From Gammaproteobacteria bacterium (GTDB taxonomy: Bacteria; Pseudomonadota; Gammaproteobacteria; JAJPIJ01), in NCBI GenBank assembly GCA_022072255.1, contig JAJVHZ010000022.1, forward strand, positions 1-64,000: a stretch of DNA of 64,000 nt. The letters are read 5' to 3'. Shown piece after piece: positions 51,879-63,702 of this stretch; positions within the stretch are counted from its first letter, which is position 1; the number at the start of each line of letters is the position of its first letter. The notes under the pieces are model-generated. The model worked only from the letters and a program-made list of their open reading frames with translations, ran no database searches and was not told the origin of the DNA. A program made the translations under genes and the position numbers.

Positions 51879-51954
51879 GCCCTGGTAGCTCAGGGGATAG
51901 AGCAACCGCCTCCTAAGCGGTAGGTCGGCGGTTCGAGTCCGCCCCAGGGCGCCA
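51879..51954 (+). tRNA. tRNA-Arg (anticodon CCU)
   Basis: gccctggtagctcaggggatagagcaaccgcctcctaagcggtaggtcggcggttcgagtccgccccagggcgcca; full cloverleaf with encoded CCA. Confidence 0.97.
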
Positions 51955-56054: not shown

Positions 56055-57455
56055 ATGCCCGACAACCGTGCGAATAACCTCCGGCCTCCCCGCCGCCTCC
56101 CCTCCGCGGCGGACACGCAGGTGTGCGCCGCGACGGGCGCGAGGCCGCGGGCGCTGCGCTCGCGTTCTTTCGCCGCGCAGCGCCAGCAATGGGAGCCGTA
56201 CCTGTTCATCGACCAATTGCGCCTCATGCCGCAGGGCGGTCGACCCGGCCCGGGGTTGCGGCTGCTGACCGCGATCACGGTTGCAACCGACGGCCGTCCC
56301 ACGACCCGCTTCCTGCTGCCTGTGCGCGAATCCCATGCGGAGTGCTGGGTGCGCATGCTGACCCAGCTGCAGCGCGAACGCCTCCCGGATCTGCGCCTCA
56401 TCGTCGCCGATGCCTCAGCGGCCTTGCGCACGGCCACGTTGCGCGCGTTCCCACGCGTCCAGTGGCAGCAGTCGATACCGGCGTTCTGCGCCCGCGTGCT
56501 CGCCCACCTGCCGGCAAGCCAGAGGACGGGCGTCGCACGCCGGCTGCGGAACATCTACCAGCAGCCCGATCGCACCGCAGCGACCGCCCGGGCAATCGGT
56601 GTCGCGGCCCTGCTCGCACGACTGGGAAACTGGTCCGGGGCCGTGTATTTCGCGAGCTGTTATCAGGACACCCTGACGTTCTACAGCTTCCCCGAGGCGG
56701 ACTGGCAGCAGTTGCGGGAGCAGGCGACCAGCAGTGAGCTGCGCGGCAGCATACGGCGGCAACTCGCCCTGGACGGCCGCAGCGACGGATGGCTCCTCGA
56801 GAGTCACGATGCCCCGGCGCACGCCACCGGCTTGCACCTGGTGGCGCCGGCCCCGGCCGCCCCCGCCGCGGATGGTTCGCCGCGCACTGACGGAACGCTC
56901 GAAGGTGCGCATCCCCCGGGCGACGGCACGCTGCCGCTGTCGCCGCTGGCGGTCGCATCAACCGGAGGGGCGGAATCCGCGGACCCCGAACCGACGTTGC
57001 CGCCCGCTCAGCCCCGCGCGCCGGACATGGAGGCGAGCGACGCCGCGGGTGCAGGCTGCGGGCCGGCTGACTGCAGATCGGACGCGCCCCCCGCGTGTGG
57101 CCCCGCCGCGGAGCGGGTGTCCCCCGCGGCTTTGTACGCCGGGCTGGAATTCATGGAAACCGAGCCCACGCAGCCGCCCGCGATCCGCATGGAGTTCATC
57201 GAGGTGGAGGATCGTTACGGTTACACGGCGTTGTTCGAACACGAGGAACGCGCGGCCGCGCACTCGGCCACCGGTGGCGGAGCGTGCGCCACGCAGGCGC
57301 CGCCCCCGCGCCTGAAAGGCCGGCTCAGGCGCGTCGCAGACATGGTCCTCGGGACGGTCGGCGCCGCGGCGCTCGCCAGGCCGGGGATGCGCCAGGCGGC
57401 GGACGCGGCAGTCGGCACCGGCGGCATGGCTCCCGCCCCTCCGGGGCCGACCTGA
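56055..57455 (+). CDS. IS256/mutator-type transposase-derived protein with long disordered C-terminal tail (candidate domesticated transposase)
   Basis: EPYLFIDQLRL...RESHAECWVRMLTQLQRERLPDLRLIVADASAALRTATLRAFPRVQWQQ...RNIYQQPDRTAA...LTFYSFPEADWQQLREQATSSELRGSIRR parallels the IS256 transposase core order; no N-terminal DNA-binding region. Confidence 0.65.
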   Translation: MPDNRANNLRPPRRLPSAADTQVCAATGARPRALRSRSFAAQRQQWEPYLFIDQLRLMPQGGRPGPGLRLLTAITVATDGRPTTRFLLPVRESHAECWVRMLTQLQRERLPDLRLIVADASAALRTATLRAFPRVQWQQSIPAFCARVLAHLPASQRTGVARRLRNIYQQPDRTAATARAIGVAALLARLGNWSGAVYFASCYQDTLTFYSFPEADWQQLREQATSSELRGSIRRQLALDGRSDGWLLESHDAPAHATGLHLVAPAPAAPAADGSPRTDGTLEGAHPPGDGTLPLSPLAVASTGGAESADPEPTLPPAQPRAPDMEASDAAGAGCGPADCRSDAPPACGPAAERVSPAALYAGLEFMETEPTQPPAIRMEFIEVEDRYGYTALFEHEERAAAHSATGGGACATQAPPPRLKGRLRRVADMVLGTVGAAALARPGMRQAADAAVGTGGMAPAPPGPT

Positions 57456-57483: not shown

Positions 57484-58800
57484 CTATTCTTCGACCCGCG
57501 CGATCGCCTGCTGCGAGACGCGCTCGGTCGTGACCGACAGCCGCTGGATCAGGGTCCGCAGAAAGGCCTTGAGAAAGCGCACCTGGCAGACCATCGACAC
57601 CTGGTTGATGACCGTGGAATTCAGCTTCAGCAGCGCCGTCTGTGACTTCGCGACGATGGTCGCGGTGCGGCGCGCGCGGGTCAGGTAGCCCATCTCGCCG
57701 AAGCAGTCGCCGACCTTGAGTATCCGGAGATCGACGCCGGCCTTGCGCACGGTCACCTCGCCGCTGGTGATGACGTAGAACGAGTCGTCGATCTCGCCCT
57801 CCAGGATGATCTCCGCGCCGGGGGCGTACTGCAGCCAGTTGCCCGCCCGCACCAGCTCCCAAAGCTCCGCGTCCGTGAAGCCGCGGAAGAACTCCAGCCG
57901 CTTCAGGTCCGCGCACAGTTCCTCCGCGGCGATCTCCTCGCGCGGCTGCTCGAGCATGCGATCGAAGGCGCGGCTCAAGTCGGCGGCAAACTCCATCGCC
58001 GTGGGGTACCGATCCTGCGTGTTCTTCGCCATTGCACGGCGCACGATGGCCTCGAGCACCGCCGGCACGCCGCTGCGCGCGCTGGCCAGCGGCGGGGCCT
58101 CCTCGTTGAGGATGCGATGTATGAGACGCGAGAAGCTCTCCGCCGTGAAGGGATGACGGCCGGCAAGCAGTTCGTAGGTCACCACGCCCAGGGAGAAAAT
58201 GTCGGTCTGCGCCGTGAGGGAGTCCTCGTTCAGCTGCTCGGGCGACATGTAGCGGGGCGAGCCGATCATGGCCATGGGCAACGTGCCGGTGGCGTCGTGC
58301 TTGCTCAGGTAGGCGATGCCGAAATCTCCGAGCTTGACGTCGAGGTCAGCGCTCAGCAGGATGTTGCTGGGCTTGATGTCGCGGTGGATCACACCCTGCC
58401 GGTGCGCGTAGTCGAGCGCCTTGGCCACCTTGAAGACGATCTCCACCACCTTCTCCACCGGCAGCAGGGATTCCGGCTTGCAGTACTTCTTGAGGGTTTC
58501 CCCGCCCTCGACGTTCTCCATGACGATGTAGCACTCCCCCCCGTCCACACCGGCGTCGTAGATCGCGATGATATTGGGATGGGTGAGCAGGCCGGCGGTA
58601 TGAGCCTCGTTGAAGAACAGCTTGCGATACTGCGCGCCGGAGCCCTCGTCCTGGAGCTGCTCGGCGTGGGCCACCTTGATGGCGACCCTGCGATCGACGT
58701 AGGGGTCATGGCCGAGGTACACCGTCCCCATGCTCCCGCGCCCGATCTCTTCCAGCAGTTCGTACTTGCCGAGGCTCTTGGTCTTGGTAATTGACGTCAT
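57484..58800 (-). CDS. Ser/Thr protein kinase with C-terminal cyclic-nucleotide-binding domain (paralog A)
   Basis: GRGSMGTVYLG, VAIKVA, HRDIKPSN, DFGIAY, GSPRYMSPEQL; cNMP: LILEGEIDDSFYVITSGEVTVRK...GDCFGEMGYLTRARRTATI. Confidence 0.93.
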   Translation of the reverse strand: MTSITKTKSLGKYELLEEIGRGSMGTVYLGHDPYVDRRVAIKVAHAEQLQDEGSGAQYRKLFFNEAHTAGLLTHPNIIAIYDAGVDGGECYIVMENVEGGETLKKYCKPESLLPVEKVVEIVFKVAKALDYAHRQGVIHRDIKPSNILLSADLDVKLGDFGIAYLSKHDATGTLPMAMIGSPRYMSPEQLNEDSLTAQTDIFSLGVVTYELLAGRHPFTAESFSRLIHRILNEEAPPLASARSGVPAVLEAIVRRAMAKNTQDRYPTAMEFAADLSRAFDRMLEQPREEIAAEELCADLKRLEFFRGFTDAELWELVRAGNWLQYAPGAEIILEGEIDDSFYVITSGEVTVRKAGVDLRILKVGDCFGEMGYLTRARRTATIVAKSQTALLKLNSTVINQVSMVCQVRFLKAFLRTLIQRLSVTTERVSQQAIARVEE

Positions 58801-60692: not shown

Positions 60693-62354
60693 ATGAACCA
60701 CGACATCACGACCAGTGCGCCATGGCGCGCCCTCAGTTCCCATCACGCCCAGGTGGCGACGCTGCACATGCGCGAGCTGTTCCGGAACTCGCCGGAACGC
60801 GCGATCGCGTTCAGCCTCGAGGCCGCGGGCCTGTTCCTCGATTATTCCAAGAATCGCATCGTGCCGGAGACCATGCAGCGGCTGCTGGACCTGGCGCGTA
60901 CCGCGGACGTCGAGGGTCAGCGCGACGCGATGCTGGCCGGCGCGATCATCAACAACACCGAGCGGCGTGCCGTGCTGCACACGGCGCTGCGGCGGCCGGC
61001 CTCGCAGGCGCTGGTGCTGGACGGCACGAACATCATGCCCGGGATCGCCGAGGTGCAACGGCGCATGCGCGGCCTGGTCGACGCGCTGGCCGGCGGACAC
61101 TGGCGCGGCTACAGCGGACAGCGAATTACGGACGTCGTCAACATCGGCATAGGCGGCTCGCACCTGGGACCCTGCATGGCGACCGATGCCCTGAGGGCCC
61201 ATCACCGTACCGGCCTGCGCGTACACTACGTGTCAAACGTCGATCCCGGCGATCTGTCCCACACGCTCGCCACGCTGCATCCTGAATCGACCCTGTTCAT
61301 CGTGGTCTCCAAGACCTTCACCACCCAGGAGACCTCGGCAAATGCCCAGGCCGCGAGAAACTGGCTGCTGCAGAGCTTCGGCGACGGCCGCGCCGTGGCC
61401 TCCCACATGATCGCCGTCACCTCCAACGTCGAGGCGGCGCAGCGCTTCGGCATTGAACCGGCGAACACCTTCGAGATGTGGGAATGGGTCGGCGGGCGCT
61501 ACTCGCTATGGTCCGCCGTCGGCCTGTCGACCGCCTGCGCGGTGGGCGGCGACGCGTTCGCTGAAATGCTTGCGGGCGCCTACGCGATGGACAGCCATTT
61601 TCAGCAGGCGCCGCTGGAGATGAACATGCCCGTGGCCCTGGCGCTGCTCGGGGTGTGGTATCACAACTTTTTCGGCGCCGAGAGCCTGTGCGTGGTGCCT
61701 TACGACGAATCGTTGCGGCATTTTCCGGCGTACCTGCAGCAGCTCGACATGGAGAGCAACGGCAAGCGCGTCGATCGCGCCGGTCGGCCGGTGCAAACGA
61801 GCACCGGTCCGGTGCTCTGGGGCGGCACCGGCACCAACTCCCAGCACGCCTTCTTTCAGCTCCTGCATCAGGGCGGACGCCTCGTTCCCCTGGATCTCCT
61901 CGTGGGGCTGCGGAATCCACGGCCGATTGCGGACCAGCACGACATCCTGGTCGCCAACTGCATCGCCCAGGCCGAGGCGCTGATGCGCGGGCGGACTCTC
62001 GATGAGACCCGGCGGGAGATGCGGTCCTCGGGCGTCGAGGAAGGCCGAATCGAGCAGCTTGCACCGCACCGCGTGTTTCCCGGCAACCGCCCGAGCAACC
62101 TCATCGTCTACCCCGAACTGACCCCGCGGGTGCTGGGGGCCCTGATCGCCCTTTACGAACACAAGGTGTTCGTGCAGGGCGCAATCTGGGGGCTGAATTC
62201 CTTCGATCAGTGGGGCGTGGAACTTGGCAAGCAACTGGCGGGCACGGTGCTCCGGGAATTGCAGGGCGGCGCGCAGGTCGAGCACGACGCCTCCACCGCT
62301 GCGCTTGTCGCCCTGTACCGCAGCCGGCGCGAGGCCGGCGACGCCGGGGACTGA
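60693..62354 (+). CDS. pgi: glucose-6-phosphate isomerase
   Basis: VVNIGIGGSHLGPCMATDAL; VSKTFTTQETSANAQAARNWL; GKQLAGTVLRELQG; ALYEHKVFVQGAIWGLNSFDQWGVELGK. Confidence 0.97.
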   Translation: MNHDITTSAPWRALSSHHAQVATLHMRELFRNSPERAIAFSLEAAGLFLDYSKNRIVPETMQRLLDLARTADVEGQRDAMLAGAIINNTERRAVLHTALRRPASQALVLDGTNIMPGIAEVQRRMRGLVDALAGGHWRGYSGQRITDVVNIGIGGSHLGPCMATDALRAHHRTGLRVHYVSNVDPGDLSHTLATLHPESTLFIVVSKTFTTQETSANAQAARNWLLQSFGDGRAVASHMIAVTSNVEAAQRFGIEPANTFEMWEWVGGRYSLWSAVGLSTACAVGGDAFAEMLAGAYAMDSHFQQAPLEMNMPVALALLGVWYHNFFGAESLCVVPYDESLRHFPAYLQQLDMESNGKRVDRAGRPVQTSTGPVLWGGTGTNSQHAFFQLLHQGGRLVPLDLLVGLRNPRPIADQHDILVANCIAQAEALMRGRTLDETRREMRSSGVEEGRIEQLAPHRVFPGNRPSNLIVYPELTPRVLGALIALYEHKVFVQGAIWGLNSFDQWGVELGKQLAGTVLRELQGGAQVEHDASTAALVALYRSRREAGDAGD

Positions 62355-62388: not shown

Positions 62389-63702
62389 TCACGGGGCGGT
62401 ATCCGCCATCCTCTCGGTGGTCGAGGACAGCCGCTCGATCAGGATGCGCAGGAACACGCGGCAGAACCGCAACTGACAGTCCTTGGAAACCTGCTCGATC
62501 AGGGTCGAGTTCACCCGCATCAACGTCACGGGCGAGGTCGCGATGATCGATGCCGTGCGCCGACGCCGACTGATGTAACCCATCTCGCCGAAGCAGTCGC
62601 CCGCCTTCAGCTCGCCCACGATCGTGTCGCCTTTCTTGACCACGACCGAGCCGCTGATGAGTATGTAGAAGGAGTCGTCAATCTCCCCTTCGACGATGAT
62701 CTCTCCGCCCTCGTCGAAGCGCTCCCAGACGCTGGCGCGCATGATTTCCCAGATCTCCGCTTCGCTGAAACCGCTGAAGAAGTCGAGCCGCTTCACGCTC
62801 GCGACCTTCTCCTTGGTGGAGATGTCCTCGACCGGCTGATCGAAGTTCCTGAACGTGGTGCTGAGATCCACCGCGATGTCCATGCCCATCTTGTAGCGCC
62901 GTCGCAGATCCTTCTGCAGGCATCGATTCACGATCTGCTCGAGCTGCTCCGGAAGATCGGGGCGCACCTGCCGCAGCGGAATGGGCTCCTCGTTGACCAC
63001 CCGGTAGATGAGCTTCGAGAAGGAATCGCCGCCGAAGGGATGCCGCCCGCTCAGCAGCTCGTACATCACCACGCCCAGCGAAAACAGATCGGTCTGATTG
63101 CCGACGTTGTCCTCCTGGATCTGCTCCGGGGACATGTAGCGGGGCGATCCGACGAACCCCACCGGCAGCGTCTTCGAGGAGTCACGGCGGGTGACGTAGG
63201 CTATGCTGAAATCGGCGATCTTGAGATCGCCGTCGGGGGTCAGCAGCATGTTGGAGGGCTTGATGTCACGGTGGATCACCCCCTGCCGATGCGCATAATC
63301 GAGCGCCTTGGCGCACTTGAAGACGATCTCCAGAACCTTGGAGACGGGCAGCAGCTTGTCGGGCCGGGTATAGGACTTCAGGGTGTCGGCGCCCTCGACG
63401 AGCTCCATCACGATGTAGCAGGTCTCGCCTTCCACACCGGCGTCGAAGATGTCCAGTATGTTCGGATGCCGCAGCATTCCGGCCGTGTGCGCCTCGTTGA
63501 AGAACATCTTGCGGTAGGTTTCACCCGATTCCTTGTCGCGCAATGCCTCGGCGAGGGCCACCTTGATGGCGACGGGGCGGGCGACGAAAGGATCGAAGCC
63601 GCGGTAGACGACTCCCATGCTGCCACGCGCTATGGCATCGATGACATCGTACTTGCCGAGCTTGCGCGGCAGGGTGTCGGTGCTTTCCAGGAGCGCGCTC
63701 AT
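62389..63702 (-). CDS. Ser/Thr protein kinase with C-terminal cyclic-nucleotide-binding domain (paralog B, DFS variant)
   Basis: ARGSMGVVYRG, VAIKVALAEAL, HRDIKPSNMLL, ADFSIAY, GSPRYMSPEQI; cNMP: IVEGEIDDSFYILISGSVVVKKGD...GDCFGEMGYISRRRRTASI. Confidence 0.92.
   Translation of the reverse strand: MSALLESTDTLPRKLGKYDVIDAIARGSMGVVYRGFDPFVARPVAIKVALAEALRDKESGETYRKMFFNEAHTAGMLRHPNILDIFDAGVEGETCYIVMELVEGADTLKSYTRPDKLLPVSKVLEIVFKCAKALDYAHRQGVIHRDIKPSNMLLTPDGDLKIADFSIAYVTRRDSSKTLPVGFVGSPRYMSPEQIQEDNVGNQTDLFSLGVVMYELLSGRHPFGGDSFSKLIYRVVNEEPIPLRQVRPDLPEQLEQIVNRCLQKDLRRRYKMGMDIAVDLSTTFRNFDQPVEDISTKEKVASVKRLDFFSGFSEAEIWEIMRASVWERFDEGGEIIVEGEIDDSFYILISGSVVVKKGDTIVGELKAGDCFGEMGYISRRRRTASIIATSPVTLMRVNSTLIEQVSKDCQLRFCRVFLRILIERLSSTTERMADTAP

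Follow-up and report, generated by a model that had tools for sequence, protein, structure and literature searches.

A probably domesticated IS256-type transposase gene with a partly selected C-terminal tail in a gammaproteobacterial genus

Results

A transposase-derived gene at a fixed locus

An open reading frame on the plus strand of the window, the whole 64,000-nucleotide stretch of DNA analysed here, begins with an ATG at 56055 and closes with a stop codon that ends at 57455, encoding 466 amino acids in a region of about 71% GC. The placement of the start at ATG 56055 is supported by sequence comparison, since the orthologue described below starts at the same codon, alignment gaps of 16 and 1 bases lie upstream, and an in-frame stop is found upstream in the window. 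The gene is flanked by genes for a cobalamin adenosyltransferase and a Ser/Thr kinase. The cobalamin adenosyltransferase and a periplasmic-binding-protein/FecCD/ATPase transporter are encoded on the same strand, and the kinase, which carries a cyclic-nucleotide-binding domain, is convergent. Apart from one tRNA, no RNA families, riboswitches included, were found near the gene. Two paralogous Ser/Thr kinases with a C-terminal cyclic-nucleotide-binding domain are present in the window, at 57484-58800 and 62389-63702 (both on the minus strand); they lie about 4 kb apart and their DNA is about 69% identical, as compared across two genomes. The parts of the transposase-derived gene are as follows.

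56055..57455, plus strand: whole gene, transposase-derived protein of 466 aa; start and stop region shared with the orthologue, indels in multiples of three bases
56055..56189, plus strand: short Arg-rich N-terminus, aa 1-45, in place of the IS256 DD/NDB/HTH domains; dN/dS 0.41
56190..56804, plus strand: RNase H-like IS256 core, aa 46-250, matching PF00872 and ISCth4; dN/dS 0.16
56211..56213, plus strand: D53, kept; equivalent to ISCth4 D175, the first catalytic Asp
56409..56411, plus strand: D119, kept; equivalent to ISCth4 D241, the second catalytic Asp
56472..56483, plus strand: SIPA, aa 140-143, replacing CxxH (ISCth4 C262/H265); Cys and His gone from both species
56733..56738, plus strand: S227-E228, with S227 at the third catalytic position (ISCth4 E348) and a Glu one residue downstream
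56805..57119, plus strand: acidic linker rich in Pro, Ala and Gly, aa 251-355, close to neutral; dN/dS 0.83
57120..57254, plus strand: acidic tail block, aa 356-400, containing TEPTQPPAIRMEFIEVEDRYGYTALFEHEER, selected; dN/dS 0.27
57309..57392, plus strand: basic, probably helical C-terminal block, aa 419-446, containing GRLRRVADMVLGTVGAAALARPGM, selected; dN/dS 0.22

An orthologue at the same place in a sister genome

The one other genome of the genus that was examined (G001; JAJVIQ) carries an orthologue, 77% identical overall and 90% identical in the core, in the corresponding position between its cobalamin adenosyltransferase and Ser/Thr kinase genes. JAJVIQ is GAM_9R, a metagenome-assembled genome (MAG) recovered from a partial-nitritation anammox reactor (PMC9202391). 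Our evidence base consists of two MAGs of related wastewater bacteria, probably from one anammox reactor, together with a sample of about 700 other genomes. A same-locus orthologue across species, one mark of a domesticated transposase, is thus present for two species of the genus only. The gene was found in two of the four genomes of the order that were examined; the two other genomes of the family lack it, and their cobalamin adenosyltransferase loci have different neighbours and no trace of it. In 369 genomes of the class and, in an overlapping set, 399 of the phylum, we recovered just ordinary IS256-like proteins, whose identity, where available, was about 30% or less; the genome-contig scan used two N-terminal patterns, which distant relatives would escape. 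Phage and plasmid searches produced no match, and PHROG and PADLOC returned nothing except a general transposase match.

Two other differences from the sister genome were noted in the surrounding region. At L010:1008-5941 of that genome (versus window 51879-51954) an island of about 4.9 kb adjoins the 3' end of tRNA-Arg(CCT) and is delimited by an imperfect copy, about 48 bp long, of the tRNA end; its cargo, read by eye, appears to comprise CBS-domain, DksA/TraR-like and HAD/ATPase-like ORFs, with no integrase seen. A phosphoglucose isomerase gene at window 60693-62354 is missing at the same spot in the sister genome, which has its own phosphoglucose isomerase elsewhere. The latter is 50% identical to the window enzyme, compared with 60% for more distant family members, a pattern that suggests a possible gene replacement.

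The core resembles IS256-type transposases

Residues 48 to 237 match Pfam PF00872 (Transposase_mut) with an E value of 6e-17 and 62 bits (cut-off 21), across profile positions 161-349 of 379. By this measure the likeness of the core to IS256-type transposases is far above chance. The initial annotation had predicted the PF00872 similarity, and its ORF coordinates and IS256 motif landmarks are likewise as we find them. Against the NCBIfam IS256 model NF033543 the protein scored 63 bits, below the 150-bit cut-off for a full-length equivalog. The only solved relative recognized by sequence was ISCth4 TnpA (E 2.7e-6 for the core). The protein lacks about 160 N-terminal positions of PF00872, which cover the dimerisation, DNA-binding and HTH domains, and only about 45 amino acids precede the match, in agreement with the earlier observation that the N-terminal DNA-binding region is missing. 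The catalytic domain also ends early, its C-terminal catalytic segment having been replaced. The best IS256 matches elsewhere are about 30% identical to the core and have CxxH and the Glu intact, and in a tree of the core the window protein branches off on a stem 2.1 substitutions per site long, its placement weakly supported (0.56).

AlphaFold models built from the two sequences were poor, with mean pLDDT of 36 for the whole protein and 42 for the core. When these models were submitted to Foldseek, ISCth4 ranked first in the PDB for both whole protein and core (core E 1.7e-4, probability 1.00), and the weaker matches included other RNase H-like proteins such as RuvC, HIV integrase and Metnase. 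The homology claim is carried by the sequence match; the low-confidence models are weak evidence.

The DDE active site is altered

The active site of ISCth4 consists of D175, D241 and E348, plus C262xxH265, and for transposases carrying this kind of insertion domain the CxxH motif is reported to be important in catalysis (PMC7780238). Both aspartates have counterparts here at the codons initially assigned to them. The initial annotation had also noticed that a WQRCRVHF-type sequence has become WQQSIPAF, and this change from the WQRCxxHF of IS256 transposases is indeed seen, the C and H of CxxH being S140 and A143 in both species. When aligned without gaps to IS256 proteins, the window protein has Ser (S227) at the third catalytic position, where the orthologue has Asn, and the TNP motif that precedes this position is lost. 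The Glu that had been placed near the third catalytic position (56736-56738) is present as E228, one residue downstream of the aligned position 227. Among 30 related IS256 proteins, C was retained in 28, H in 27 and the third-position Glu in 28. Since CxxH is lost and the third position is Ser or Asn, a working DDE site is unlikely; as the two Asp are kept and E228 adjoins the third position, some residual or altered metal chemistry may persist.

That residual chemistry is the starting point for one alternative, in which the gene encodes a domesticated nuclease or recombinase that still acts on DNA through D53, D119 and a repositioned E228. All three residues are conserved in both species, and the modelled structures lend support to an RNase H-like fold. 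The altered catalytic position and missing TNP motif nevertheless count against such an enzyme, as do the loss of the CxxH motif, with its reported importance for catalysis (PMC7780238), the missing DNA-binding domains and a core model (mean pLDDT 42) that yields no high-confidence active-site geometry. We consider it improbable.

The gene does not behave as a mobile element

The absence of inverted repeats, recorded at the outset, held for the flanks of the gene: no terminal inverted repeats flank it, and the only pairs detected were imperfect, GC-rich, and either within the ORF or with both arms on one side. Its own assembly, 95% complete in 128 contigs, contains no other PF00872 match, and a DNA search there found no second copy, so the multiple genomic copies that would have pointed to an ordinary element were not seen. 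The sister genome contains the orthologue plus a 50-position PF00872 fragment elsewhere. Of the properties that define an IS256 insertion sequence, the gene shares core similarity to Transposase_mut; it lacks a full-length equivalog score, an aligned DDE triad, the C/DxxH motif, the N-terminal domains, terminal inverted repeats, and multiple copies or varying location. An ordinary IS is ruled out by the lack of flanking inverted repeats, the single copy and the fixed place in the sister genome.

Transposases that have been cut short can disturb their intact counterparts, and an immobile derivative could in principle guard the genome as a dominant-negative inhibitor of IS256 transposition, a role with which an assembly free of any other IS256-type transposase would agree. 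That same absence leaves the inhibitor no target element, however; the dimerisation and DNA-binding domains that it would presumably need are missing, and even the nearest IS256 proteins found share just about 30% identity with the core. We regard this role as very improbable.

Purifying selection acts on the core and on two blocks of the tail

Selection was assessed by comparing the amino-acid changes observed between the two orthologues with those expected if the same base changes were placed at random; the signal rests on two sequences only. The core shows 21 amino-acid changes where an unconstrained sequence would be expected to have 43.9 (P 0.0002), and its dN/dS of 0.16 falls inside the 0.08-0.31 range of the neighbouring genes. 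Purifying selection, a second mark of a domesticated transposase, is thus seen here. P values are given per region, uncorrected for the eight regions compared; multiplied by eight, those for the core and the two tail blocks are still under 0.05.

The tail comprises about 216 amino acids (residues 251-466). A long disordered tail fused to the transposase had been proposed; the fused form was right, the proposed length of about 180 amino acids was too short, and the tail resolves into two selected blocks plus a nearly neutral linker. The linker (251-355) has 50 changes where 48 are expected, the neutral value (dN/dS 0.83). Block 356-400 has 9 changes against 15.6 expected (P 0.001; dN/dS 0.27), and block 419-446 has 4 against 8.6 (P 0.003; dN/dS 0.22). 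The conserved-looking block named in the initial annotation is therefore under selection, and block 419-446 is a second conserved block in addition to it. Approximate net charges are +9 for the core, -10 for the linker, -7 for the acidic tail block and +5 for the C-terminal part. Tail-block matches in two genomes of the same family (E 0.004 and 0.017) were attributed to chance; they sit inside diaminopimelate epimerase genes.

Indels within the ORF total 12 bases, all in frame and in multiples of three, and no frameshift was present in the single orthologue found. A decaying IS256 remnant whose frame stays open by chance, as long frames commonly do at about 71% GC, would suit the truncation of both ends, the lost catalytic residues and the nearly neutral linker, but it is strongly disfavoured, with a very small residual probability, by the 21 core changes against 43.9 expected (dN/dS 0.16), by the lack of any stop codon in an ORF in which unconstrained substitution would be expected to produce about 3.4, and by indels in multiples of three in the ORF when those upstream (16 and 1 bases) are not.

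Discussion

The initial annotation had left a choice between an exapted transposase and a strongly diverged remnant whose full-length ORF has been kept, and the dN/dS pattern leans towards exaptation. The gene is probably neither an IS nor a decaying pseudogene; its core appears to be exapted and catalytically dead. That it is a domesticated transposase in these two genomes we consider likely.

We propose that an ancestor of this gammaproteobacterial genus captured an IS256-family transposase gene. Both ends of the coding region would then have been cut back, with loss of the dimerisation, DNA-binding and HTH domains at the N-terminus and of the catalytic segment at the C-terminus; the inverted repeats and key catalytic residues would also have gone, and the tail of about 216 amino acids with its two conserved blocks would have been added. 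Sequence, copy number, synteny and dN/dS show, for the two genomes, that selection now maintains one copy of it, in a fixed position, as a host gene. Judging from the missing residues, DNA cutting and joining have most likely gone. The RNase H fold that remains, together with an Arg-rich helical insertion, would serve as a folded module, probably contacting nucleic acid or a partner protein, and the flexible linker would present the acidic block and basic C-terminal helix to another partner. Taken as a whole, this account of a captured and degraded IS256 transposase, kept as a host gene in a binding-module role without cutting, has in our estimate a probability of roughly 0.7. Any more specific role, as regulator or scaffold, is argued by analogy with the FHY3/FAR1 and TldR proteins discussed below and is doubtful.

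With ISCth4 TnpA (IS256/Mutator; PDB 6xg8, 6xgw, 6xgx; PMC7780238) the window protein shares an RNase H-like core with a helical insertion domain, the first two catalytic Asp, and the FPxxxWQ and (F/Y)YxxPxxxW landmarks. It differs in having no DD/NDB/HTH domains, in the loss of CxxH, the displaced third Glu and the replaced C-terminal catalytic segment, and its gene in the long added tail, the lack of inverted repeats and the single fixed copy.

A search of the open-access literature found no description of an IS256-derived host gene. Domesticated transposases are well known in eukaryotes; among them, FHY3/FAR1 keep an N-terminal DNA-binding domain, the part missing in the window protein. FHY3/FAR1 are plant MULE-derived transcription regulators (PMC13306707) and likewise represent a Mutator-superfamily transposase kept as an immobile host gene. 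They are plant transcription factors of known function, whereas the window gene is bacterial. To our knowledge, recent examples of bacterial domestication come from other nuclease families, and one such protein, TldR, is nuclease-dead. The TldR proteins, TnpB-derived RNA-guided bacterial regulators (PMC13418256), are also transposon proteins repurposed in bacteria; they differ in belonging to an unrelated nuclease family and in being RNA-guided.

We tentatively suggest, at somewhat less than even odds, that the gene founds a new family of bacterial regulators or scaffolds, so far confined to one genus, in which a catalytically dead IS256 core is joined to a new selected tail as a bacterial counterpart of FHY3/FAR1. 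The small size of the protein makes this easy to test. If true, it would mean that the common DDE transposase fold has been recycled into host proteins in bacteria too.
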